A stretch of 32,883 nt of DNA, taken from NCBI GenBank assembly GCA_945865625.1, contig CAMBFD010000014.1:1-32883 (forward strand), in the 5' to 3' direction. Position numbers and translations under genes: made by a program. Source of the DNA: Chitinophaga pinensis (GTDB lineage Bacteria; Bacteroidota; Bacteroidia; NS11-12g; UBA955). Positions 27,245 through 29,382 of this stretch are shown piece after piece. A model generated the notes under the pieces. That model was not told the origin of the DNA and ran no database searches. It worked only from the letters and a program-made list of their open reading frames with translations. Every line of letters starts with the position of its first letter. Position 1 is the first letter of the stretch.

Positions 27245-27811
27245 TTAATTCAATCGTTTCGACAAAATTCCCTCAACATGCTGAAAGAGTTGTCTGGGTC
27301 CGAGTTTGCGCCACAATACGTCGTCTAAGTCGCCCCCAAAATTCAGGTAATAATCGATATGATTTTTTCTAAATTCTTCGAGTACATGTTCTCTAAAATT
27401 GATGAGGGATATCCAACCGTCTTCAACATCTTGAAACCATTCTTCATAGTAACTATCGTCGGATGCGTGAAAATTCATTACGCTTTCGCCAATGAGTATG
27501 AATTTATTGATGCCTTCTGCGCCCAAAATCTCTAAGACTTCGCGCTTTAATTGCATAATGTCGTTGTACAATGCATCATTCCATTCACCAATCATTTCGA
27601 TAATTACAAATCCTTCTTCGTAATCGGCAAATAAAATTTTGATATATAAAGTGCTACTTCCAAAATGATCCCATTGAGGGTGAATTAAATAATTATAAAC
27701 GGTTTTATCGTAATAAAATTCGCTGTATTCTCTGCCATAAAATGGAGAGGCGCTATCTTCCGCCGCGCTGTATATATTTAACCAAGCAAAGTGAGGTTCA
27801 ATGTCGTGCAC
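27245..27811 (-). CDS. Conserved Bacteroidota hypothetical protein, GTG start
   Basis: A 188-residue acidic soluble protein with no signal peptide or membrane helix. I recognise its type as a conserved Bacteroidota protein of unknown function, with an HDIEPHFAW start, SPFYGREYSEF, NYLIHPQWDHFGS and the aspartate/tyrosine-rich DDSYYEEWFQ. I place the start at the GTG 27811, because the conserved part begins exactly there and a -7 element lies 4 bases upstream. The frame stays open upstream to 28024 only because the 9-bp repeat reads as LSN/HSN/PSN units, which I regard as non-coding. It is divergent from the flippase gene across the repeat island and ends 68 bases before the pdhB start codon. 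Confidence 0.75.
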   Translation of the reverse strand: MHDIEPHFAWLNIYSAAEDSASPFYGREYSEFYYDKTVYNYLIHPQWDHFGSSTLYIKILFADYEEGFVIIEMIGEWNDALYNDIMQLKREVLEILGAEGINKFILIGESVMNFHASDDSYYEEWFQDVEDGWISLINFREHVLEEFRKNHIDYYLNFGGDLDDVLWRKLGPRQLFQHVEGILSKRLN

Positions 27812-27815
27812 GGCG

Positions 27816-27823
27816 CAAAGGTA
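27816..27823 (-). promoter_or_regulatory. -7 promoter element TACCTTTG for the conserved hypothetical gene
   Basis: An exact TAnnTTTG match on the minus strand, 4 bases before the GTG start. It implies a leaderless mRNA, and places the minisatellite in the -33 and upstream region of this promoter. Confidence 0.55.
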
Positions 27824-27831
27824 AGAAATAG

Positions 27832-27975
27832 GATTAAAAAGATTAGAATGATTAGAAAGATTAGAATGATTAGAAAGATTAGAGGGATTAGAGGGATTAG
27901 AAAGATTAGAATGATTAGAATGATTAGAGGGATTAGAAAGATTAGAAAGATTAGAAAGATTAGAAAGATTAGGGA
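27832..27975. repeat. 9-bp minisatellite, 16 tandem units
   Basis: Sixteen consecutive 9-base units fill exactly 144 bases. The unit is GATTAGAAA (seven exact copies), with variants GATTAGAAT (four) and GATTAGAGG (three), and a degenerate unit at each end (GATTAAAAA first, GATTAGGGA last). There are no spacers, so it is not a CRISPR array. Because the unit is a multiple of three, both strands stay open through it. It lies between two divergent genes and directly upstream of the minus-strand promoter at 27816-27823. Confidence 0.97.
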
Positions 27976-27984
27976 GAATACAGT

Positions 27985-28007
27985 TCGCCCCAACGATGGC
28001 GGGGCGA
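27985..28007. repeat. GC-rich inverted repeat next to the minisatellite
   Basis: TCGCCCC (27985-27991) pairs with GGGGCGA (28001-28007) around a 9-base loop. It sits 9 bases from the minisatellite and shares the core CGGGGCG with the palindrome inside alr. It may be a REP-like element or a hairpin in the flippase upstream region. Confidence 0.7.
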
Positions 28008-28056
28008 TAAACATTAAACACCAAACCTTAAATTTTATCTTTTATCTTCGCAGCGA

Positions 28057-29382
28057 ATGTCGAAAGCGTTTTTTAAAAATCAACTTTGGTTGCAAGCCTT
28101 AAATTGGCTCATTAAACCATTGTGGATTTTTGCCATTGAAAGAACGGTACAATTAAAACTTGGCGACGAATGGTATGGTAAGTACTTCGTTCTGTTTAAT
28201 TTAGGATTGCTTTTTGCCGTTTTGTTAGATGCCGGTTTGAACAATTACATCTCTCGTGAAATTTCAGCTGCCGGAAGATTGGTTCACAAAAAGAGAATCT
28301 TAAGCTTACGTTTGCTCTTGGGGTTATTATACCTGATTTTGGTGTTTGCCGCAGGGCTGAATCAGAATTTGGATCTTAAATTATTGGCATTGGTTGCATT
28401 CAACCAAATTTTGGCCTCTTTTTCTTTGATGTTTCGGGCGGTTTTGCAGGGCCGACATCGATTTATTGCCGACAGTATTCTCAGTGTTTTAGACCGTTTT
28501 GTTGCCCTCATTTTATGCAGTGTATTTTTGTATTTTTACGAAAATCAATTCATTGCTGAACAAGGAATTACCTTATTTTTAATTGCTCAAACTTGTGGGT
28601 ATTTCCTCGCCGTTATTCTGGGGTTAATTTTAGTGAAAAGGACAGATAATGCTGAGCCTCCAACCGATTATACGGCTACTTTGTCCCTCGAAAACGAAAC
28701 CCTAAAAAATTGGATTCAGAAGGTTGGATGGTTTGCCGTGATGGCATTGGCAATGAGCGTGTTTACCCGCGTTGACGCCTTAATGATTCGCCAATATTCT
28801 TTAGATGGCTTAACCACTTATTTAAAGCCTATTTCGGAGGGATATTATCAGGCCGGAATTTACGCTCAAAGTTATCGTTTACTCGATGCCGCACTTATTT
28901 TTAGCACCCTTTTAAGCACGCAACTTTTGCCCATGTTTACTCGGAAAATTGCAAATAAAGAAAATGTAAATGGCATTTTAAAATTGTCTACGGTTGTGGT
29001 ATTGTCGATTGGAATAACGGCGTCTTTGGTTGCTGTTTTTGGAGGAAATTTTATCCTAAATTTTATCTACAAATCGGGCTATTCAAATGAGGCGGAATTG
29101 CAGTATGCAACTACAATTTTTGGTGTATTGTTGTCATCGTTTTTACCAATGGCACTCACTCATGTGTTTGGCACATTTATAACAGCATTAGGACAAATGA
29201 AATGGCTCGCATTTATGGCCATAGGATGTATGGCGTTGAATATTGCAATTAATTTTGTTTTTATACCAAAAATGGGAGCCTTAGGGGCTGCATGGAGTTG
29301 CTTAATTACGCAATGCGTGTTTGCCTTAGGTTGTATTTTTAGAAGCTTGCAATACTTAAGCGGAAATTCTTCGGATCAATAA
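28057..29382 (+). CDS. Polysaccharide flippase (MATE/MOP superfamily, Wzx-like)
   Basis: A 441-residue protein with about twelve to fourteen hydrophobic segments and no large soluble domain. The N-terminal half has the typical LDAGLNNYISREISAAG motif after the second helix and AVLQGRHRFIADSILSVLDR, both common in Wzx-type lipid-linked oligosaccharide flippases. The C-terminal helices include VFIPKMGALGAAWSCLITQ. It probably moves undecaprenyl-linked sugars across the inner membrane, in line with the Wzz and O-antigen ligase genes far upstream, though no sugar gene is adjacent. TATCTTCG at 28043-28050 is a one-mismatch -7 element 6 bases before the ATG. A GAGGGAC-type site at 28683 is antisense. 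It is convergent with glyA, 11 bases apart. Confidence 0.83.
   Translation: MSKAFFKNQLWLQALNWLIKPLWIFAIERTVQLKLGDEWYGKYFVLFNLGLLFAVLLDAGLNNYISREISAAGRLVHKKRILSLRLLLGLLYLILVFAAGLNQNLDLKLLALVAFNQILASFSLMFRAVLQGRHRFIADSILSVLDRFVALILCSVFLYFYENQFIAEQGITLFLIAQTCGYFLAVILGLILVKRTDNAEPPTDYTATLSLENETLKNWIQKVGWFAVMALAMSVFTRVDALMIRQYSLDGLTTYLKPISEGYYQAGIYAQSYRLLDAALIFSTLLSTQLLPMFTRKIANKENVNGILKLSTVVVLSIGITASLVAVFGGNFILNFIYKSGYSNEAELQYATTIFGVLLSSFLPMALTHVFGTFITALGQMKWLAFMAIGCMALNIAINFVFIPKMGALGAAWSCLITQCVFALGCIFRSLQYLSGNSSDQ

Follow-up and report, generated by a model that had tools for sequence, protein, structure and literature searches.

A nine-base tandem repeat in a divergent promoter region belongs to a dispersed, clade-limited intergenic family

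The array of nine-base units at positions 27832-27975 is probably a copy of an intergenic tandem-repeat family, with the unit GATTAGANN, that belongs to one clade of lake Flavobacteriales and that would slip and spread in gaps where it is tolerated. The family is dispersed in its genome, is limited to that clade, differs in its linker bases between species, and shows both gains and losses within closely related species. The window copy, as comparison of orthologous loci indicates, occupies a gap opened between divergent promoters that nearly coincide elsewhere in the genus; it appears to have been gained there recently, in a manner that looks like drift and not like a switch. By the window we mean the whole stretch of DNA analysed, 32,883 nucleotides, which is the entire contig C14 of a 2.22 Mb draft genome (G000) of 153 contigs.

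The array, its flanking promoters and the neighbouring palindrome

Sixteen units can be read in register on the forward strand at 27832-27975, each formed by GATTAGA and two further bases, and the GATTAGA strand points away from the gene on the left. TRF, run on the window, gives a period of 9, 15.7 copies and a score of 205 over 27832-27972. The first-pass annotation had described sixteen units of perfect length, and this number stands in register, although GATTAGA is exact in only 14 of them (units 2-15, with the linkers AA seven times, AT four times and GG three times), the first (GATTAAAAA) and the last (GATTAGGGA) being degenerate; the count is taken from a draft MAG, and short-read assembly can give a wrong count for a repeat of 144 bp. 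Dinucleotide shuffling of the window, repeated 60 times, never produced three tandem units. The order of the linkers, with stretches such as AT-AA-AT-AA, GG-GG and AA-AA-AA-AA, resembles the outcome of one- and two-unit duplications. At 28008-28033, also on the forward strand, lies a remnant of a second repeat type, the 7 bp TAAACNN, recognised from its sequence and from the presence of its family elsewhere in the genus.

The left gene (27245-27811, minus strand) encodes a conserved protein of unknown function of 188 amino acids including the GTG start, as deduced from its translation and its orthologs. Its product matched 0 Pfam families, its relatives are encoded by at least 585 loci, and it is conserved across Bacteroidota. 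With queries that spanned 27245-27808, a stretch lacking the residue of the GTG start, orthologs were found in 11 of the 14 genomes of the genus, the other three giving no match; the five genomes closest to G000 share 87-98% identity in this gene and the next ones 76-81%. Among the matches listed, the nearest named relative is the MAG ErkenSummer_bin-0977 (98% identity), and further near relatives are labelled Flavobacteriales or Bacteroidetes. The GTG start is conserved in all 11 orthologs, and so is, at equal spacing, a -7 box of the form TAnnTTTG, which in the window reads TACCTTTG and lies on the minus strand at 27816-27823, 4 nt before the start codon. With the -7 box placed at -12 to -5, as in the passage cited here (PMC9723704), this 4-nt spacing predicts that the transcript begins at the GTG itself, that is, that the mRNA is leaderless.

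On the other side, a flippase-type membrane protein with matches to the MurJ and Polysacc_synt families is encoded on the forward strand at 28057-29382, preceded by a -7-like box, TATCTTCG, at 28043-28050 on the same strand, whose form TAnCTTCG is kept in relatives. The earlier placement of the array in a divergent promoter region is thus upheld by back-to-back -7 boxes that are conserved in orthologs, and the coordinates agree with its further statement that the array starts 9 bases upstream of the minus-strand -7 element (TACCTTTG) and covers the -33 region, the -33 position falling in unit 2.

Nine bases past the array, the inverted repeat TCGCCCC/GGGGCGA that had been reported was found at 27985-27991 and 28001-28007; as RNA it folds into a 7-bp stem of -13.5 kcal/mol. 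The palindrome alone barely exceeds chance, given that GC-rich 7-bp inverted repeats arose at a mean of 0.12 per dinucleotide shuffle, with a maximum of 2, in 60 shuffles of the window. It is accepted as real because related copies exist, and not on the strength of the shuffle statistics. A decayed copy of a GGGGCGAAT...ATTCGCCCC palindrome lies at 27972-27994 on the forward strand and has a perfect 29-bp counterpart at the same place in the sister species G004; an extra CGGGGCG segment beside the decayed palindrome gives rise to the inverted repeat seen in the window. Copies of GGGGCGAAnTGnATTCGCCCC with up to three mismatches are found at five places in G000 and nine in G004, and they are often followed by ATTCGCCC-type units. 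In G004 (L072, L074 and L075), dispersed arrays of approximately 16-bp ATTCGCCCC-type units are opened by a half palindrome, GTAGGGGCGAAT.

The pairing of array and palindrome does not recur: the 14 G000 loci that were read at or next to other arrays contain no CGCCCC/GGGGCG inverted repeat. A single composite element made of array and palindrome is rejected, as the other arrays lack such a palindrome, and the CG-rich palindrome belongs to a repeat family of its own that occupies the gap independently of the array. Compared with REP/RAYT systems, it shares the dispersed palindrome and lacks the Y1_Tnp transposase: Y1_Tnp (RAYT, PF01797) is absent from both G000 and G004, by which a RAYT-driven spread of the palindrome is rejected, and PF01797 occurs in one of the 14 genomes of the genus, G012, with three Y1 transposase (RAYT-type) matches (L083-L085).

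Distribution of the family and turnover between sister species

The expectation that similar arrays would be found elsewhere in the genome was borne out: a search of G000 for GATTAGANN gave 11 places with at least three tandem units, on 10 contigs. The three-unit pattern occurs in six of the 57 genomes of the order (G000, G004, G006, G008, G010 and G013), all of which form one clade within one genus and are also the six closest by the left gene, and the four-unit pattern is absent from all 394 other Bacteroidia that were sampled evenly across the class. The two linker bases are species-typical, being AA, AG, GG or AT in 46 of 53 units in G000, and CG or CA in 99 of 106 in G010, 29 of 29 in G008 and 10 of 10 in G013. 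Clusters of GATTAGA arrays fall in coding sequence in none of 16 cases in the G000 stretches and in one of 43 in G010. The repeats therefore have the properties of a dispersed intergenic short tandem repeat family of the STRR type, with unlinked places, non-coding location and lengths that differ among relatives. Among the matches listed from the open PMC literature no description of the GATTAGANN repeat was found, which is not proof of its absence from print.

The gaps that hold these arrays also house other short-unit families, namely the 7 bp GTTTANN, whose four-unit pattern is present in 7 of the 14 genomes of the genus, and the GGTTTATRA/GCTTATGG types. Larger rearrangements were seen at some places. 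On contig C8 of G008 (L034, about 1250-2200), a block of approximately 150 bp, composed of a GATTAGAC array, TAAAC and GCCGAAGGC stretches, is present in about five tandem copies, and on contig C44 of G000 (L023/L189, about 540-800) a duplication of approximately 105 bp has copied an intrinsic terminator hairpin together with a GATTAGA array. In G010 (L194-L201), a palindrome, TCCCGAWAGCTWTCGGGA, recurs at several places within the GATTAGAC units or between them, and inward-facing arrays stand at both ends of many gaps.

The history of the window locus can be approached through the distance between the two -7 boxes, measured from start to start. This distance is 21 bp in G009, G001 and G002, 22 bp in G003 and 40 bp in G012, and it is 68 bp in G008, 104 bp in G013, 178 bp in G006, 114 bp in G004 and 227 bp in G000, with a different repeat content in each of the latter; in G010 no flippase box was found within the 420 bp read. 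In this reading of orthologous loci, no start motif was seen in nine of the 15 named ones (L107-L121), which were dropped. The spacing of 21-22 bp in relatives, set against the wide, repeat-filled gaps of the clade, suggests that superimposed divergent promoters are likely the older arrangement, later pulled apart by repeats in one clade, species by species. The window locus would then be a case of superimposed divergent promoters separated by the insertion of repeats.

According to BLAST pieces, the flanks of the window locus are 95.1% and 90.7% identical between G000 and G004, and the sole break, 27829-28009 (181 bp) in G000 versus 68 bp in G004, falls exactly over the array plus the palindrome. 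At this locus G004 has the same two promoters and no GATTAGA; what it carries is a GGTTTATRA array and the perfect palindrome. On contig C58, G000 has six GATTAGANN units directly behind a stop codon, and G004 has GGTTTATRA units in that slot and retains the adjoining GTTTANN stretch; in G006 and G010 the aligned flanks are separated by only about 10-20 bp. The unit numbers in G000 and G004 at the four orthologous loci compared are 16 vs 0, 6 vs 0, 5 vs 4 and 4 vs 4 (one unit of the last locus being degenerate), with G004 74% complete and the C48 locus excluded for its partial coverage by the G004 contig. The proposal that unit number varies across relatives accordingly holds, for both presence and length differ between close relatives, as in the 16 units of the window and the 0 of G004.

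All of this can be accommodated by a drifting repeat family. Short repeat stretches would be copied, as seeds, into gaps where nothing breaks, presumably those behind stop codons, behind terminators and between back-to-back promoters. Once seeded, an array may gain or lose one or two units at a time through slipped-strand pairing, and ectopic copying may maintain the similarity of arrays within a species, as the patterns of units and linkers suggest. Since the gaps are short and an insertion is harmless only behind stops or terminators or between -7 boxes, a family drifting in this way needs no function. The chief local effect would be that overlapping promoters are pulled apart, after which the number of units would matter little. 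A search for a donor, an enzyme or an insertion junction of the arrays found none.

Orientation of the arrays and competing explanations

Among the 11 intergenic regions of G000 with arrays, seven are convergent, three codirectional and one, that of the window, divergent, and the distance from stop codon to array start is 1-36 nt in most cases. When one array is counted per region, whichever is nearest a gene, 43 of the 49 intergenic regions have GATTAGA pointing away from that gene (p = 6e-8), with 9 of 11 in G000, 28 of 31 in G010, 4 of 5 in G008, and 1 of 1 in each of G006 and G004. The orientation is the same at 3' ends (30 of 34) and at 5' ends (13 of 15). Counted by cluster, it is significant in G010 (34 of 41, p = 2.5e-5) and not in G000 alone (10 of 13, p = 0.09), after dropping the clusters without one flanking gene (3 of 16 in G000 and 1 of 43 in G010) and the one G010 cluster that is coding. 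Genes were called with a codon-usage script and not taken from annotation; some of the stretches were picked for holding arrays, orientation being no criterion, and the remaining ones by contig number, some of those contigs being already known array holders.

No such polarity is seen for the control heptamer AATCAAA (34 of 75 and 53 of 112), and the GTTTANN family has no clear one in G000 (9 of 14). A general outward GC skew at gene borders is rejected as its cause, for the pooled skew is -0.01 to 0.06 at array-free borders and 0.36 to 0.83 at array borders. The idea that the TAG of GATTAGA serves as a backup stop codon is likewise rejected, given that the distances from stop to array, worked out by hand, show no preferred frame. 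An orientation as strict as 43 of 49 regions is unexpected for a purely neutral repeat and requires selection or directional insertion; it remains unaccounted for by the drifting family.

This outward orientation, alike at 3' and 5' ends and unmatched by the control heptamer, would suit a polar insulator. According to this explanation, which we regard as unlikely, the array is copied as UCUAAUC RNA in transcripts that enter the gene and works there as a Rho utilization (rut) site that stops read-through or antisense transcription at gene borders; such RNA is G-free, contains C, is unstructured and offers a YC step every 4-5 nt, and different repeat types of like property could replace one another. 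Rut sites are described, in the passage cited, as C-rich, G-poor and unstructured, with YC repeats (PMC9160355), and the gene-entering strand of the window array has this composition, with spaced YC steps. Over its 144 nt, the minus-strand RNA contains 39 C and no G, and it folds at 0 kcal/mol. No other stretch of the contig stays G-free for as long as the one in which the array lies (164 nt, the next being 54), and the array also provides the highest C minus G value of the contig in any 78 nt (24). The lead over the next 78-nt stretch (22) is small, however, and the richness in C is automatic from the unit once the polarity is given. G000 has one Rho_RNA_bind match, and the GGTTTATRA array that takes the place of GATTAGA yields a CC step per unit on the equivalent strand. 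Against these points, the second repeat type, GTTTANN, is without clear polarity, some arrays already stand behind an intrinsic terminator, and array-free relatives do without. Were the arrays insulators, leftward transcripts from the flippase side would end before the left gene, whose promoter, lying beyond the array, would be untouched.

A broader version of this idea, which is more doubtful still, extends polar border arrays to unrelated phyla. Units of 7-10 bp would have their G-bearing, C-poor strand outward, and the transcripts entering the gene, G-free and YC-periodic, would recruit Rho. The unit could then drift or be swapped, as GATTAGANN for GGTTTATRA, polarity and strand composition being what is selected, and the polarity of GGGAATC repeats would be explained without quadruplexes.

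It is quite improbable that a non-autonomous, MITE-like element has these arrays as its terminal inverted repeats and that its insertion between genes would dictate their orientation. Several intergenic regions of G010 do have inward-facing arrays at both ends and a partly shared interior. However, in G010 no more than 7 of 44 arrays are followed by shared sequence, and these lie within 7 kb on a single contig; in G000 the maximum is 3 of 18, and the G000 gaps that were read closely carry different repeat types at their two ends. GATTAGA arrays thus lack the constant ends and shared interior of such an element, and no target duplication or transposase was found, the Y1 family, which was the one searched, being absent from G000 and G004.

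The proposal of the first-pass annotation that a variable number of repeats tunes or phase-varies the flippase or its neighbour, through promoter geometry or protein binding, is weakly supported by the sequences compared and seems very improbable. It draws on the position of the array over the -33 of the left promoter and on the variation of its presence and length among relatives. Both -7 boxes lie outside the array, though, and the left one is intact in 11 of 11 orthologs, whereas just two of the 11 have a TTG at -33. In the sister species another repeat accompanies the same promoters, so that the repeat is exchangeable, and only one of the 11 array regions of G000 is divergent, nearly all other arrays of this genome lying away from promoters. 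Whole units added on the promoter-distal side should leave the proximal sequence as before, and unit number was not found to change the spacing or the sequence of the -7 and -33 elements. A frame-shifting role for the array is not available either: translation of the left gene begins downstream of it, at the GTG conserved in all 11 orthologs.

The prospect that the array encodes an N-terminal (Ser-Asn-Leu)n extension of the left protein is practically nil: a minus-strand frame is open across the array up to a TTG at 28024, which is uninformative because a stop-free 9-bp unit keeps any frame open, and this coding reading is rejected since 11 of 11 orthologs start at the GTG directly behind the -7 box, the other 10 having no extension.

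Relation to known short tandem repeats

The STRR sequences of Nostoc and Anabaena are dispersed short tandem repeats that serve as strain fingerprints, and heptamers of this kind occur in cyanobacteria. The GATTAGANN family, read as a drifting intergenic repeat, can be likened to them by description, both being dispersed short tandem repeats.

A second likeness is to the TAACTGA repeats of Beggiatoaceae, cyanobacteria and five Bacteroidetes (MacGregor, 2015, PMC4679880), which are, in the passages cited, short-unit intergenic direct repeats present in several Bacteroidetes and often missing from neighbouring species. The same passages give them a fixed 7-bp unit and, in the main species, a position mostly just upstream of start codons, in which they differ from the family described here, and propose them as sites for a translational regulator (MacGregor, 2015, PMC4679880).

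A further comparison is with the GGGAATC and GGGGA(C/T)T heptamers of Xanthomonas and Nostoc (Rehm et al., 2015, PMC4692102). In the sections of that study considered here, these repeats form dispersed intergenic tandem arrays of heterogeneous units, vary in length between relatives, are scarce between divergent genes, and lie close to the ORF located 5' of the repeat, whatever the direction of that ORF, which corresponds to the outward orientation observed in 43 of 49 regions here. The same sections leave the role of the GGGAATC repeats open. The differences are also clear from them: the GATTAGANN unit has 9 bp with two free bases, whereas theirs has 7; X. campestris has 186 patterns, against about a dozen array places in G000; and their sites are mostly shared and in stable regions, while GATTAGANN loci turn over between sister species. 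Unlike the heptamers, GATTAGANN is not of the guanine-quadruplex type, since most linkers give no GGG, and for the CA- and CG-linked arrays of G010 a quadruplex is rejected, as they have none.

The outward polarity known for quadruplex-type heptamers thus also holds for a unit unable to form a three-tetrad quadruplex, and two different arrays can substitute for each other in one slot within sister species. From polarity in a non-quadruplex unit and from this swapping of arrays it follows that what needs explaining, in the GATTAGANN family as compared with these heptamers, is the polarity and not the sequence of the unit.
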